Shown piece by piece: positions 1,795 to 11,966 of a stretch of 48,176 bases of DNA. Below the pieces are notes generated by a model. That model worked only from the letters and a program-made list of their open reading frames with translations, was not told the DNA's origin and searched no databases. Made by a program: the position numbers and the translations under genes. This DNA comes from Nitrosomonas sp. (GTDB lineage: Bacteria; Pseudomonadota; Gammaproteobacteria; Burkholderiales; Nitrosomonadaceae), in contig JAGOKN010000012.1 of the NCBI GenBank assembly GCA_017994575.1, forward strand, positions 1 to 48,176, read 5' to 3'. How positions within the stretch are numbered: position 1 is the first letter of the stretch; each line of letters opens with the position of its first letter.

Positions 1795-1997
1795 CTGCTA
1801 GTTTAGTGCTTTATAAAAAGTATAGGTTAGTAAACTAATTATCACAAGAAGGTACAAATATGCCACCAGGTAACAAAAGTGTTTCCAAGATAAAATAGAC
1901 CTCTACACAACCGTAAGAATTTTGCTGTAGTGACAGAAAAAATTTCCAAATGACAGTTGTTGCACGTCATTTTGATAGAAAGCGCCCTCTCCTCTTT

Positions 1998-2052
1998 TTA
2001 ATAAACATTTCATGAATATTTAACAAATACTTCAACGTAGCTTCATAAACCC
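1998..2052 (+). promoter_or_regulatory. Five 11-bp-phased TTMA repeats, Pho-box-like array
   Basis: Hexamers TTAATA (1998), TTCATG (2009), TTAACA (2020), TTCAAC (2031) and TTCATA (2042) begin exactly 11 bases apart. Direct repeats at 11-bp spacing are the hallmark of PhoB/PhoP-family (OmpR-type winged helix) binding sites. The TTCAT core resembles the weak half of a Pho box, although the canonical CTGTCAT is not present. The array ends 18 bases before the first ATG of the phosphoesterase gene. An operator role is inferred from phasing and position only. Confidence 0.45.
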
Positions 2053-2070
2053 TCTTTAAGCTGTGATGCC

Positions 2071-2907
2071 ATGAATAACCCAATTAAAAAGGCATTTATG
2101 GTGAAAAATACAGCTCCTATCAAAGTCAGAAGTGTTTGGATCTCAGATGTTCATCTCGGATTTCGCGGTTGCCAAGCCGATGCGCTCTTGCATTTTCTGC
2201 ATTCTGTCGAAACGGATTATCTTTTCCTAGTCGGCGACATTGTCGATTTTTGGAGCATCAAAAAGAATCCTTACTGGCCGCAAGAACACACTAATGTGAT
2301 TCGGTCGATTTTAGGCAAAGCTAAGCATGGCACCAAAGTCATTTATATTCCCGGCAATCATGATGAGGCATTACGGGATTGTGTCAGTCATGTATTCGGC
2401 AACATCGAGATTCATCAAGATTATGTGCACACATCAGCCGAAGGGAAAAAATTGCTGATAATGCATGGCGATGAATTTGATGTCATCGTCAAAAACAGCC
2501 GTTGGCTTGCTAAATTGGGAAATGTCGCCTACGACACTTTATTGGACCTCAATCACTATATCAATAGCTTGCGCAAATTCTTCGGTTTCTCCTACTGGTC
2601 ACTGGCTGCTTATCTAAAATTGAAGGTTAAGAATGCAGTCAGTTACATCAGCAGTTTTGAAGATGCATTGGCGCATCTGGCGCACGAACGCGGTGTCGAT
2701 GGTGTTGTCTGTGGGCATATACATCATGCCGAATTAAGAGAAATTAATTCAATTTTGTATTGCAATGATGGCGATTGGGTGGAGAGCTGCTCGACTCTGC
2801 TGGAACACACCGACGGATCACTGGAGTTGGTTTTCTGGTCTGAACGCTTTGAGCAATACAAAAATCATATTCAGGAAGAGTTACTTGCCAGTAAGAAAGC
2901 AGCTTGA
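2071..2907 (+). CDS. PlcP/LpxH-type metallophosphoesterase (COG2908)
   Basis: Calcineurin-like phosphoesterase of 278 aa. Metal-binding motifs are DVH (26-28), GDIVD (55-59), GNHDE (95-99), HGDEFD (132-137) and GHIH (215-218). The sequence also has the RGC, YWPQ and GDWVES features of the PlcP branch of COG2908, usually annotated as UDP-2,3-diacylglucosamine diphosphatase. PlcP of rhizobia and marine bacteria removes phospho-headgroups from phospholipids during phosphate starvation, giving diacylglycerol. That role fits the next two genes, a glycosyltransferase and a diacylglycerol kinase. An LpxH-like role in lipid A synthesis remains possible. Start: the ATG at 2071 has no Shine-Dalgarno; the ATG at 2098 follows AAAAAGG by five bases and is probably the true start, which also leaves room for a promoter after the repeat array. 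Confidence 0.75.
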   Translation: MNNPIKKAFMVKNTAPIKVRSVWISDVHLGFRGCQADALLHFLHSVETDYLFLVGDIVDFWSIKKNPYWPQEHTNVIRSILGKAKHGTKVIYIPGNHDEALRDCVSHVFGNIEIHQDYVHTSAEGKKLLIMHGDEFDVIVKNSRWLAKLGNVAYDTLLDLNHYINSLRKFFGFSYWSLAAYLKLKVKNAVSYISSFEDALAHLAHERGVDGVVCGHIHHAELREINSILYCNDGDWVESCSTLLEHTDGSLELVFWSERFEQYKNHIQEELLASKKAA

Positions 2908-2909
2908 AT

Positions 2910-2970
2910 ATGAAACCAAGAAATAATCACTGCTCTGTCCCAGCAGATTATTACCCTTCGCAGGTTTCAT
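2910..2970 (+). other. Intercistronic nested hairpin
   Basis: Directly after the phosphoesterase stop, three nested arms pair: ATGAAACC (2910-2917) with GGTTTCAT (2963-2970), AATAAT (2922-2927) with ATTATT (2947-2952), and CTGCT (2930-2934) with AGCAG (2942-2946). There is no U-tract, so it is more likely an mRNA-stabilising or processing structure within the three-gene unit than a strong terminator. Confidence 0.5.
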
Positions 2971-3072
2971 GCAAATCAATTTCCAATAACACATCAAAAG
3001 CTTTGCTGAACGGTATCAGGTCATTGTACTCATGTATGCATGTCGCTTTCAGAAGCTTAGGAACACATTGAA

Positions 3073-4110
3073 ATGAAAATATTTTATGGCATCCAAGGAA
3101 CCGGTAATGGTCATATCACTCGCGGTCGCATCATGGCCAGAGAACTACAAGCTGCTAATCTTGAAGTCACTTATCAATTTACTGGCAGACCGCAAGATAA
3201 ATTCTTTGATATGGAAGTGTTTAACGGCTATCAATGGCGCAATGGCCTGACGTTCAGCACTCAGAATGGCAAAATCAATCATCTGCAAACAGTATTGCAA
3301 TCCAAACCACTACGTTTTATAAAAGATATCAAACAGTTGGATTTGAGTAGTTACGATGTGGTGATTTGTGATTACGAACCAATAACTGCTTGGGCGGCGC
3401 GTCAACAGAACAAAAAAACCATAGGTATCAGTCATCAATATGCATTCCAATATCACATTCCCCGCGCAGGCACTGATCCGGTTTCTGAAGCGGTTATGAG
3501 AAATTTTGCTCCGGTTGATATTGGCATCGGTTTGCATTGGCATCATTTCGATCAACCTATTTTGCCGCCTGTGATTGAAACTCCGATCATTACTCAGCAG
3601 GTACAAAGAAACAAGGTAGTTATCTATCTGCCCTTTGAAGATCAGCAGCATGTGATGAAACTGTTATCGCCCTTCAAGGAATTTGAATTCTTTATTTATT
3701 CTCCAGAGAATGTGGCTTCGCCTTATGCGCATATTCATTGCAAACCATTGTCTCTGCATGGGTTCCAAAAAGATTTGTCAGATTGTGCCGGCATCATTTG
3801 CAACGCTGGTTTTGAGCTGGCCAGTGAATCGTTGCAACTGGGCAAGAAAATCCTGGTAAAACCCGTGCATGCACAAATGGAACAAACTTCCAATGCAGCG
3901 GCTCTTCAACTATTAGGATACGGAAAAATGATGCATAGCGTCGATGCGAAAATAATTGAGCAATGGCTGTATGAATCCAAGGCTATTCAAGTAACTTACC
4001 CCAACACGGCCAAATATTTGGTGCAATGGATCAAGGACGGCATGCCGCCCATTGATCCATCCTGGTGTCGTCAGATATGGTCAGATGTTAAGGTGATCCC
4101 GGTTGATTGA
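3073..4110 (+). CDS. GT28-like glycosyltransferase (MJ1255/VC2487 family)
   Basis: 345 aa, GT-B fold. The N-terminal glycine-rich loop GTGNGHITRG (9-18) matches the MurG/MGD-type start of GT28 enzymes. Near 245-290, CNAGFELASESLQLG...KPVHAQMEQTSNA resembles the MurG donor-sugar region. Family members are generally named MJ1255/VC2487 glycosyltransferases with undefined substrate. GT28 includes diacylglycerol glycosyltransferases, and the flanking phosphoesterase and diacylglycerol kinase make diacylglycerol the likely acceptor, giving a glycolipid at the cytoplasmic membrane (inference). AGGA lies about 11 bases before the ATG. The gap to the upstream gene is 165 bases, with a hairpin, and to the downstream gene 88 bases. 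Confidence 0.75.
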   Translation: MKIFYGIQGTGNGHITRGRIMARELQAANLEVTYQFTGRPQDKFFDMEVFNGYQWRNGLTFSTQNGKINHLQTVLQSKPLRFIKDIKQLDLSSYDVVICDYEPITAWAARQQNKKTIGISHQYAFQYHIPRAGTDPVSEAVMRNFAPVDIGIGLHWHHFDQPILPPVIETPIITQQVQRNKVVIYLPFEDQQHVMKLLSPFKEFEFFIYSPENVASPYAHIHCKPLSLHGFQKDLSDCAGIICNAGFELASESLQLGKKILVKPVHAQMEQTSNAAALQLLGYGKMMHSVDAKIIEQWLYESKAIQVTYPNTAKYLVQWIKDGMPPIDPSWCRQIWSDVKVIPVD

Positions 4111-4198
4111 AATTGTCGCTAAAGTACTATCAATAGCACTATCATTTTGATTCATTTATGATTTATTCTAACAATTAGAGAAATTTTTAAACTCAGAT

Positions 4199-5200
4199 AT
4201 GAAAGACAATCTTTTATTTCAACACAACCCGATGGTCATCAAAATCCCCTCTCCACAAAAGATTCTGATTATTTACAATCCAATATCCAGCGCAGGAAAC
4301 ACTGAAGCCATGGCTTGCAAACTGGAAACGGAGTTGATGTTCCATGGTAAGACCGTTGAAGTGCGCACATCTGAGAAAAAAATGAAAGGTTACATGCGTA
4401 TCGCTGATGACATCGCTGCCAGCGACCTGGTTGTGGTAGTCGGTGGCGATGGAACAATACGCAAGCTTTTAGATATCATCAATAAAACCGCCACGCCCAT
4501 TTATGCGATTCCAGGCGGAAATGAGTCTCTATTTGCACGGTTTTATGAAATGAGTGCCAGCGCGGAAGATCTGCTGCAATCAATCACTGCGGGTACTTGT
4601 CTGCAACAATTTTACGGTTTGATCAGTGGTAAAGGTATTCAAGGGGAAAAACCATTTTTCAATATGGCATCAATGGGCCTAGATTCGCTCACGGTTAAAA
4701 ATATTGGTAAAAGAAAAGGCCCTTTGAATGATTCAATCTATGTCTGGCATGGACTCAAGGCTTTGTGTGCATTGCATCATCCAACGGTATCCGTCAGTAT
4801 TGACGGCGAACCAGTGATCGATCATGGTTCCGGATATATCATCATCGCCAACAATTCAGCTTATGCCAGAAACTTGCAACTCGTGCCTGCGGCTAATCCC
4901 TCCAAAAACGAACTGGTACTGGGATTCTTACCCGGTGCACGACATCAACACGAACTGATCAAAGCCATGAAAATCTTGCAACGCAAGCCCGCAAACCTGC
5001 CTATGCAGTTTTTCTCAGGAAAAAACATCGCTTGTACCCTGCATGAAAAATCTTATCCATTGCAGGTTGATGGTGATTACTTCCGCAATCGCGATATCGA
5101 AGCTGAAAGTACAGTCGAATTTAGCATCAGTCCGCGACCCATTCGGGTACTGATTCCACCGTATTTGAATACCTCTGTATTGCAGGCAGCCAATCATTAA
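4199..5200 (+). CDS. Diacylglycerol kinase-type lipid kinase (DagK/YegS family)
   Basis: 333 aa, about the length of soluble bacterial lipid kinases (DgkB, YegS). The DAGKc domain starts near residue 21 with the nucleotide-loop IYNPISSAG (25-33) and carries GGDGT (82-86). The usual P-x-GT-x-NDFAR loop is altered to PGGNESLFAR (105-114), so the asparagine-aspartate pair is shifted or replaced, which may change lipid specificity. The C-terminal beta-rich domain includes NMASMGLDS and the IIANN stretch. It would phosphorylate diacylglycerol, or a related lipid, to phosphatidate and so return diacylglycerol from the upstream phosphoesterase to phospholipid synthesis. The Shine-Dalgarno is weak. 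An in-frame ATG at 4232 is an alternative start. Confidence 0.75.
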   Translation: MKDNLLFQHNPMVIKIPSPQKILIIYNPISSAGNTEAMACKLETELMFHGKTVEVRTSEKKMKGYMRIADDIAASDLVVVVGGDGTIRKLLDIINKTATPIYAIPGGNESLFARFYEMSASAEDLLQSITAGTCLQQFYGLISGKGIQGEKPFFNMASMGLDSLTVKNIGKRKGPLNDSIYVWHGLKALCALHHPTVSVSIDGEPVIDHGSGYIIIANNSAYARNLQLVPAANPSKNELVLGFLPGARHQHELIKAMKILQRKPANLPMQFFSGKNIACTLHEKSYPLQVDGDYFRNRDIEAESTVEFSISPRPIRVLIPPYLNTSVLQAANH

Positions 5201-10302: not shown

Positions 10303-11604
10303 TCAGAAACGCCAATCCAGTTGCAAACCGCCGAGGTTAGTTTGCTCAGAATATTGTCCTATAAGAATGTCTGACGTCGCTCCCTTTCTATTAAGAGCCG
10401 GATCATCCATGAACAAGTGAGCATAAGCGGCGTGGATATGCATATTCTTCAACAGGGCATAAGTTAAGCCAACCGTCAGCCAATAACGGTTCGCATCAGG
10501 AATGCGTGGTGATCTGAGTTGTGCATTGGGAATCGGTGTTTGATCATAAGCAAAGCCCGATCTCAGTATCCATCGATTGAATTCGGAAGAATAATTGACC
10601 CCAAAAGCATAACGCCAAGTATCCTGCCATTTCAAATCGAGTACATCATCGCGCTGTGCGGAAGAAAAATCTGTCCTGAGTTCGCGCACAAGACTCCAAT
10701 GCGTCCATAGCGCATCGGCAGAAATTCCCCAGCGTGGACTGATGCGATGAGAAAATCCAAATAAAACATTATCAGGCAACGTGACCGATGTACGAGAATG
10801 GGTGTCGATAAAAGCTCCTCCTCGTGTCAACGCACTGGCATGACTAGGCAAAGAAAAATTGGCATCACCCTGCACATCATGAGTGATCCGCGATCGGTAA
10901 CTGACACCTAGACGGGTATCCTGAGTGGGCGCATAGAAGGCACCAAAATTGTATCCGAATCCGACGCTATCCCCTTTGAGAGAAACATGTCCATCAGCTG
11001 CCTGCGGCAAGAGTCCTTGATTGGTGCAAGGCGCGGAACCTAAAGCCTGAAGACAAATTGTTCCCATGTCAATTGCGTTCGTAAGCTTGGATTGTAGATA
11101 TTGCACATTGAAGCCGGCTCCCAGTGAGAATTGCTCGTTCACTTTAAACGATAAAGACGGATTGAAGTTTAAGGTTATGATTTCTGAATCAATTGCCTGA
11201 TAGCGTCCTTTCCAATCGGAATGATAACTATTGTGTGTGCCAAAAGGAACATTGAAGCCAAAACCAAATGCTATCCGTCGTGTCAGTTCATGCACATAAT
11301 AAATATTGGGGATAAGAATTGGGCCTGCTGATTCACCGCCATTATTTCCTCTCAGCGATGCACCGCCAAGCGCGGGGCTTAATTGAGACGAATGATCTTG
11401 AAAAGTGGCTGAAGGTACTATCACATATCCCGACAACGATAATAACCGACCACGAATCTGACCCATCGCTCCCGGATTAAAATAAACCATGCTTCCATCT
11501 TCGATATTGGTTGGCGCTCCCGAAAATGCCTGCCCTAATTCTTTCACGCTCTGTTCCATCACGGCTATGCCCGCAGCCATGATTTGAGTCGAGGAAAAAA
11601 GCAT
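10303..11604 (-). CDS. OmpP1/FadL-family outer-membrane channel
   Basis: 433 aa as read from the first ATG. The mature part begins AGIAVMEQSVKELGQAFSGA, matching the FadL N-terminal plug (the NPA-like motif is seen as YFNPGAMG), and the protein ends in LDWRF, with the terminal aromatic typical of beta-barrels. FadL-type channels carry hydrophobic compounds across the outer membrane. The start is odd: from this ATG the signal peptide is short and has no basic residue, while upstream codons in the same frame encode LHKRSGFISIF, a proper n-region, yet contain no ATG, GTG or TTG back to the stop near 11711. Good Shine-Dalgarnos precede ATA (AAGGAG 11629-11624, ATA 11616-11614) and ATC (AGGAGA 11679-11674, ATC at 11670 or 11667). 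A rare start codon or a start-codon mutation is possible. Confidence 0.85.
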   Translation of the reverse strand: MLFSSTQIMAAGIAVMEQSVKELGQAFSGAPTNIEDGSMVYFNPGAMGQIRGRLLSLSGYVIVPSATFQDHSSQLSPALGGASLRGNNGGESAGPILIPNIYYVHELTRRIAFGFGFNVPFGTHNSYHSDWKGRYQAIDSEIITLNFNPSLSFKVNEQFSLGAGFNVQYLQSKLTNAIDMGTICLQALGSAPCTNQGLLPQAADGHVSLKGDSVGFGYNFGAFYAPTQDTRLGVSYRSRITHDVQGDANFSLPSHASALTRGGAFIDTHSRTSVTLPDNVLFGFSHRISPRWGISADALWTHWSLVRELRTDFSSAQRDDVLDLKWQDTWRYAFGVNYSSEFNRWILRSGFAYDQTPIPNAQLRSPRIPDANRYWLTVGLTYALLKNMHIHAAYAHLFMDDPALNRKGATSDILIGQYSEQTNLGGLQLDWRF

Positions 11605-11966
11605 AAAAATACTTATAAAACCACTCCTTTTATGCAGAGAATAACTATTGGCACGATTCAGTTCGATGATTGGTCTCCTAATAGCTTGACTATTAATAAA
11701 CAGCCGTTAATGAATATGTTATATAAGCTCTTTTCAAAATACTCTGATGACTCTGCGAATTATTCTAATAATTGGACATAAATTTTCTGATGTCAATCAG
11801 ATCTATCCGACAGTTTAATATGGGTACTTCATACACTTTCAGCTAAAATGGTTTATTAAAACCAGAAATGAAGATGCAGGTTATAGAATGCTTTTTAATC
11901 CAGTGAATTTAGCGCTAATCATTTCTATGATCCATCAGCTATGCAAAATGACAACAAGGAATAAAA
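11605..11966. other. Divergent intergenic region, fadL-like / GGDEF-EAL gene
   Basis: 360 AT-rich bases. The first 100 contain the probable extended N-terminus and two Shine-Dalgarno sequences of the FadL-like gene on the minus strand. The remainder carries the promoters of both genes, with no recognisable operator or repeat. AAGGA at 11956-11960 serves the TTG start at 11967. Confidence 0.4.

Follow-up and report, generated by a model that had tools for sequence, protein, structure and literature searches.

Lipid remodelling by PlcP together with the glycosyltransferase Agt is known from Pseudomonas aeruginosa, Methylosinus, SAR11 and roseobacters, as the available text of three reports describes (PMC8528852, PMC4796936, PMC9239053). 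In the portion of PMC9239053 available, 'another putative DAG glycosyltransferase' (DAG, diacylglycerol) is noted beside the plcP of type Ia methanotrophs (Methylobacter, Crenothrix) and referred to the Bacillus subtilis DAG glycosyltransferase; the terms 'PAP2' and 'diacylglycerol kinase' are absent from the main text of that report. Here we describe a plcP locus within a 48,176-nucleotide stretch of DNA from Nitrosomonas sp. (assembly GCA_017994575.1, contig JAGOKN010000012.1, positions 1 to 48,176; the whole stretch is called the window), an ammonia oxidiser by genus membership. Three intact open reading frames (ORFs), all on the plus strand (2071-2907, 3073-4110 and 4199-5200), carry the Pfam domains of a calcineurin-like phosphoesterase (PF12850/PF00149), a glycosyltransferase (PF13528, Glyco_trans_1_3) and a lipid kinase (PF00781, DAGK_cat); a sequence-only reading of 2071-5200 had described a phosphoesterase, a glycosyltransferase and a kinase in one orientation. 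The order of a PlcP-type phosphoesterase followed by a predicted GT-B glycosyltransferase, the Pho boxes of relatives and the apparent phosphate-starvation logic resemble the PlcP-Agt systems as the available text presents them. The window differs in having a TIGR00661 glycosyltransferase in place of the GT4 enzyme Agt and in adding a lipid kinase, and its relatives further add a patatin-like phospholipase and a PAP2 phosphatase.

We consider it probable that this module serves phosphate-starvation lipid remodelling through DAG, with the TIGR00661 protein acting as a DAG glycosyltransferase. PlcP would remove phospholipid head groups and leave DAG, to which the glycosyltransferase would add a sugar, giving a phosphorus-free glycolipid; the kinase would turn surplus DAG back to phosphatidate, making the switch reversible. 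In relatives, the patatin phospholipase, PAP2 (phosphatidate to DAG), sometimes GDPD, and the ornithine-lipid enzyme OlsF are probably part of the same PhoB response. We infer all substrates and products, as well as PhoB binding, from sequence. When the window was compared with its nearest relative (genome G070), dN/dS was 0.013 for plcP, 0.044 for the glycosyltransferase and 0.014 for the kinase. All three genes are maintained under strong purifying selection, and are therefore real genes as opposed to chance ORFs.

The mechanical ORF of the first gene begins at 2071, but its start is likely the ATG at 2098 (plcP, 2098-2907, plus strand), because in several relatives the frame is interrupted by a stop codon ahead of that ATG, which is preceded by a ribosome-binding-like AAAAAGG. 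Compared with the P. aeruginosa protein whose gene immediately precedes a GT4 gene, the encoded protein shows 57% identity over 236 residues, as against 26% over 117 residues for E. coli LpxH. We take the P. aeruginosa pair to be PA3219-PA3218, from its neighbouring genes together with the plcP-agt1 order of PMC8528852. In a 41-row tree, built without one Roseomonas row of 20 residues, six LpxH rows split from 35 PlcP-side rows (100/100) and the window protein falls on the PlcP side, where the verified enzyme is a single one, that of P. aeruginosa, identified by its gene context. Five metallophosphoesterase blocks are present (SDVH, GDIVD, GNHDE, HGDE and GHIH), the third metal block reading GNHD and not GNRD. 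According to the available text of PMC3087551, His in this block marks LpxH2 and Arg marks LpxH, and P. aeruginosa LpxH2 does not replace E. coli LpxH. The curated LpxH models of NCBIfam place the protein far below their cut-offs (TIGR01854, 33 against 190.35 bits; PRK05340, 38.1 against 134 bits). Gene 1 is thus predicted to encode a PlcP-type phospholipase C, and its earlier assignment to the PlcP branch is borne out, with no clustering with LpxH.

Three lipid A genes were searched for across 61 sampled genomes of the genus, and none of the 61 had an LpxH above cut-off, an LpxI, or an LpxB at E≤1e-20. Sub-threshold LpxH matches occurred in seven genomes (best 45.7 bits); six of these are plcP genes and the seventh is in G066. 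Whether the genome holds another lpxH had been raised as a check on the PlcP assignment: no better LpxH candidate than gene 1 was found in the own genome (86% complete), leaving gene 1 as its sole LpxH-like gene, but the 61 sampled genomes of the genus have none over cut-off either. The available text of PMC3087551 credits N. europaea with only lpxK out of nine lipid A genes. Given the absence of LpxH over cut-off, LpxI and LpxB from the 61 genomes, it is most unlikely that gene 1 is retained for lipid A, and Nitrosomonas may have an outer membrane without it.

The second gene (3073-4110, plus strand) belongs to the MJ1255/VC2487 family TIGR00661 (227.6 bits, cut-off 195.9; NCBIfam), and PF13528 was the sole Pfam family found for it at E≤0.001. 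A structure model was made of a homologue from G325, which stands for the window protein at 62% identity (pLDDT 88). The best 50 of 309 structure matches of this model (E≤0.001) were glycosyltransferases, with plant, macrolide and antibiotic enzymes among them, and we take these to be GT-B enzymes; the model thus predicts a GT-B fold for the gene 2 product. The GT28-like, MurG/MGD-like identity proposed earlier had to be given up, since no GT28 Pfam model was found at E≤0.001 and no MurG/MGD structure appeared among the best 50 matches. No meaningful similarity to the P. aeruginosa GT4 (Agt) was found. In the open-licence literature searched VC2487 is mentioned in a single paper, and no mention of MJ1255 was found. 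Our best reading is that gene 2 encodes a putative DAG glycosyltransferase of a new family. DAG is proposed as the substrate because a single glycosyltransferase is found in the company of enzymes that yield DAG (PlcP and PAP2) and of one or other of two unrelated DAG kinases, an argument from the convergence of neighbouring genes that falls short of proof.

The third gene (4199-5200, plus strand) carries a DAG kinase catalytic domain (PF00781, 53.4 bits, cut-off 23.6) and a GGDGT motif that is invariant across 10 aligned rows. These features agree with the DagK type proposed for it, although the cut-off of TIGR00147 (YegS/Rv2252/BmrU) is not reached (51.5 against 118.65 bits). At E≤1e-20 the subfamily was found in 2 of 369 genomes of the class, both from Nitrosomonas. 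The gene product is therefore predicted to be a divergent, Nitrosomonas-specific lipid kinase.

Gene neighbourhoods were examined for the best 80 of 585 confirmed glycosyltransferase loci; these are mostly from Methylococcales, and comprise 14 Nitrosomonas and 66 non-Nitrosomonas loci. In relatives, a patatin-like phospholipase gene lies between plcP and the glycosyltransferase gene, and the cluster runs plcP, patatin phospholipase, (PAP2 phosphatase), glycosyltransferase, kinase; in some cases olsF, an ornithine-lipid gene, adjoins it. The order in Nitrosomonas isolate slu-bin5 (L223) is GDPD-plcP-patatin-PAP2-glycosyltransferase-kinase, and G015 has PAP2-glycosyltransferase-kinase. The genes of the three-gene module proposed earlier are thus all present, but the module of the relatives is larger than the three genes seen. 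PAP2 is directly upstream of the glycosyltransferase in 58 of the 66 non-Nitrosomonas loci. DgkA, a DAG kinase unrelated to gene 3, is found in 9 of the 80, four times within 125 bp behind the glycosyltransferase. The window holds plcP, glycosyltransferase and kinase without patatin or PAP2, and gene order points to loss of the patatin gene. The 165-bp spacer between plcP and the glycosyltransferase (2908-3072), where relatives have the patatin-like gene and a Pho box, aligned well with G070 only among six relatives tried, and no alignable deletion junction was found. With the patatin gene and the Pho box gone, glycosyltransferase and kinase follow plcP. The patatin of one relative (L034) resembles a CBASS lipase model (129 bits, cut-off 200). 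At another locus (L033, genome G024, 10567-11813) two ORFs that by eye look like an insertion-sequence transposase pair occupy the place between plcP and the glycosyltransferase that elsewhere belongs to patatin.

Ornithine-lipid synthesis by OlsF or OlsBA likewise yields a phosphorus-free lipid, and olsF has Pho-box-like sites and shares the cluster in several relatives. The own genome departs from this arrangement in that olsF (791 bits, cut-off 620) lies on another contig, C41, together with an M14-peptidase/hydrolase gene pair, a plcP remnant, an intact patatin gene and GDPD. The remnant (L048, 9588-10688) matches the last ~50 codons of a second plcP and stands ahead of the intact patatin gene, beside olsF and GDPD. 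In 6 of the 14 Nitrosomonas loci the M14/hydrolase pair is divergent from plcP, with olsF beyond it in four of the six. More widely, the M14-peptidase-like gene and the alpha/beta hydrolase travel with plcP clusters of methanotrophs and Nitrosomonas (12/80 and 13/80 loci), for example at L221 2562-4404 and L048 7611-9388.

The association of the three genes was assessed in 25 genomes of the genus, each searched for all of them; the p values ignore kinship. The glycosyltransferase is present in 11 of 12 genomes with the window plcP type and in none of 13 without it (p 2.7e-6), and the kinase in 14 of 15 genomes with any plcP compared with 1 of 10 without (p 4.6e-5). In 35/35 glycosyltransferase-bearing genomes, two of which (G073 and G041) were judged on a gene fragment adjoining the kinase, the kinase is the next gene downstream, at a gap of 29-219 bp. 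In three genomes (G009, G011 and G018) the plcP is of another type, and GT4 and an OlsB-like gene accompany it in place of the window-type glycosyltransferase. In G018 (L046, 8290-12463) kinase, OlsB-like gene, plcP and GT4 stand in a row, and in G009 and G011 the kinase is on a contig other than that of plcP-GT4. Nitrosomonas without the window-type glycosyltransferase can thus have a second plcP type, accompanied by an OlsB-like acyltransferase and GT4 (L045, L046 and L047).

Phosphate control was examined with the Pho box pattern CTGTCA(T/C)N4CTGTCA(T/C), allowing ≤2 mismatches unless stated. Among 36 distinct regions upstream of the glycosyltransferase (the window, one Methylomonas and otherwise Nitrosomonas-type), 24 contain a box, 7 of them perfect and all 24 on the coding strand; the controls gave 1/36 upstream of the kinase, 0/6 for ftsH and 0.5% of mononucleotide shuffles. 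For olsF, 30 of 35 olsF-bearing genomes, the own genome included, gave loci, and Pho-like sites at -42 to -47 were found in 16/30 regions (0.3% expected), rising to 29/30 at ≤3 mismatches (3.2% expected). The PAP2 promoters, nearly all from methanotrophs, have such sites in 12/55 cases at two mismatches and 39/55 at three; in a comparison with dinucleotide shuffles covering 19 loci, 12 reached three mismatches where 2.6% were expected. At two mismatches the pattern occurs 35 times in the own genome and its reversal 17 times. Of 12 site regions inspected, four lie ahead of pstS-pstC, phoB, a second pstS-like gene and an OprO/P-type porin, while in the remaining eight no Pho-type gene was recognised by eye. 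A further site lies ahead of olsF on C41.

Upstream of the window plcP, the strict consensus gave nothing convincing, as 109 of 300 shuffles scored equally well. Alignment of upstream regions and site ranking instead point to a candidate degenerate array of five 7-bp half-sites (1996-2046, plus strand), TTTTAAT, ATTTCAT, ATTTAAC, ACTTCAA and GCTTCAT, at an exact 11-bp spacing. This phased block aligns in all 24 plcP upstream regions, the window included, whereas the flank diverges. Scored with weights from the boxes found in this analysis, the array ranks 2nd of 96,252 with five units, 4th with four and 13th with three; the top-ranked five-unit site falls inside the glycosyltransferase gene. 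A candidate -10 element, TAAGCT (2057-2062, plus strand; genus consensus TATGCT), is placed by its alignment position ~10 bp past the array. We regard the array as a putative, though likely, PhoB array. In the window the Pho box that relatives have ahead of the glycosyltransferase is absent, and transcription of glycosyltransferase and kinase probably starts at the promoter of plcP.

The earlier proposal that DAG is either glycosylated or rephosphorylated draws support from the PlcP placement, the co-occurrence, the Pho boxes of relatives and the PAP2 and DgkA neighbours; it loses its GT28 premise, and the window glycosyltransferase lacks a Pho box of its own. Several observations weigh against remodelling through DAG. 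No characterised TIGR00661 member was found in the open-licence literature, and just 10 of the 66 non-Nitrosomonas loci have plcP within the glycosyltransferase locus. The gene 3 kinase is divergent, and its structure model is too poor to use (pLDDT 48). On the regulatory side, 12 of the 36 glycosyltransferase regions have no box at ≤2 mismatches, the best sites in the window and in G070 having four and five mismatches, respectively. A strict box occurs in none of 25 plcP promoter regions, and the phased plcP array is weak when scored at two units (47th of 96,318).

The alternative that survives best, which we nevertheless regard as unlikely, is that glycosyltransferase and PAP2 have a polyprenyl-phosphate carrier as their substrate and serve a Pho-controlled surface polymer pathway, the linkage to plcP reflecting shared regulation only. 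The PAP2 neighbour does best match undecaprenyl-diphosphatase models (SepP, 51.1 and 50.6 bits), although far below the cut-off of 250, and the plant, macrolide and antibiotic enzymes among the top glycosyltransferase folds would fit this explanation. However, no polymer-assembly genes were recognised by eye among the ORFs beside the glycosyltransferase, and the typed neighbours, the M14/hydrolase pair excepted, handle phospholipid, DAG or ornithine lipid. Somewhat less probable still is a constitutive phospholipid turnover or repair system, in which PlcP and kinase would cycle DAG and the glycosyltransferase would make a minor glycolipid regardless of phosphate. The window and G070 have no Pho box before the glycosyltransferase and yet keep all three genes under strong constraint (dN/dS 0.013-0.044), as such a system would allow, but the boxes before the glycosyltransferase and olsF in relatives, and the phased array before every plcP aligned, argue for phosphate control. 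Finally, that the phosphoesterase is LpxH, the UDP-diacylglucosamine hydrolase of lipid A synthesis, with incidental neighbours, is rejected as highly improbable: its best, sub-cut-off NCBIfam matches are LpxH models, public records name such genes UDP-2,3-diacylglucosamine diphosphatase and the own genome offers no better candidate, but the tree, the low identity to E. coli LpxH, the GNHD block, the want of LpxB throughout the sampled genus, the lipid A gene set reported for N. europaea and the lack of any such gene in 10 of 25 genus genomes all speak against it.

In a 74-row tree of the glycosyltransferase, 24 Nitrosomonas sequences form one clade (100/100) inside methanotroph sequences (99/97, 99/92). 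The tree is rooted at the midpoint only, uses 45 chosen non-Nitrosomonas loci and leaves out the distant L155 and L139, which gave no full-length match. Its simplest reading suggests transfer of the glycosyltransferase from a type I methanotroph lineage. The closest non-Nitrosomonas glycosyltransferases, among the best 80 of 585 loci, come from organisms like the type Ia methanotrophs of PMC9239053, some with the order plcP-PAP2-glycosyltransferase, and the DAG glycosyltransferase mentioned in the available text of that report is possibly of the TIGR00661 family. A bolder extension, to which we give little credence, is that TIGR00661 proteins are a hitherto overlooked family of Pho-controlled DAG glycosyltransferases passed on to Nitrosomonas together with PAP2 from type I methanotrophs, and that, the lipid A pathway being seemingly absent from Nitrosomonas, the glycolipid and OlsF lipids form part of an outer leaflet free of lipopolysaccharide, or of the internal membranes of ammonia oxidation. 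A plcP-like gene beside a related glycosyltransferase (34% identity) was also seen on plasmid pAT3 of Aureibacter tunicatorum (Bacteroidota; L155, 7765-9314).

Among the matches listed from the open-licence literature, no report described remodelling of lipids in Nitrosomonas or in any other ammonia-oxidising bacterium. As far as we found, the occurrence of the module in Nitrosomonas appears to be new, and so do the link between TIGR00661 and lipid remodelling, the partnership with PAP2 and kinase, and the Pho boxes. If the proposal is correct, phosphate-sparing membranes would extend to bacterial ammonia oxidisers, a glycosyltransferase family of archaea and bacteria would gain a testable function, and methanotrophs and nitrifiers would be linked through a common membrane-lipid gene set. 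In a lineage seemingly without lipid A genes, a phosphorus-free glycolipid would also bear on the make-up of the outer membrane.

Upstream of plcP, the window encodes a double receiver-GGDEF response regulator (309-1601). This regulator also adjoins plcP in G070, and lies ~5-6 kb upstream of it in G016, G020 and G022.

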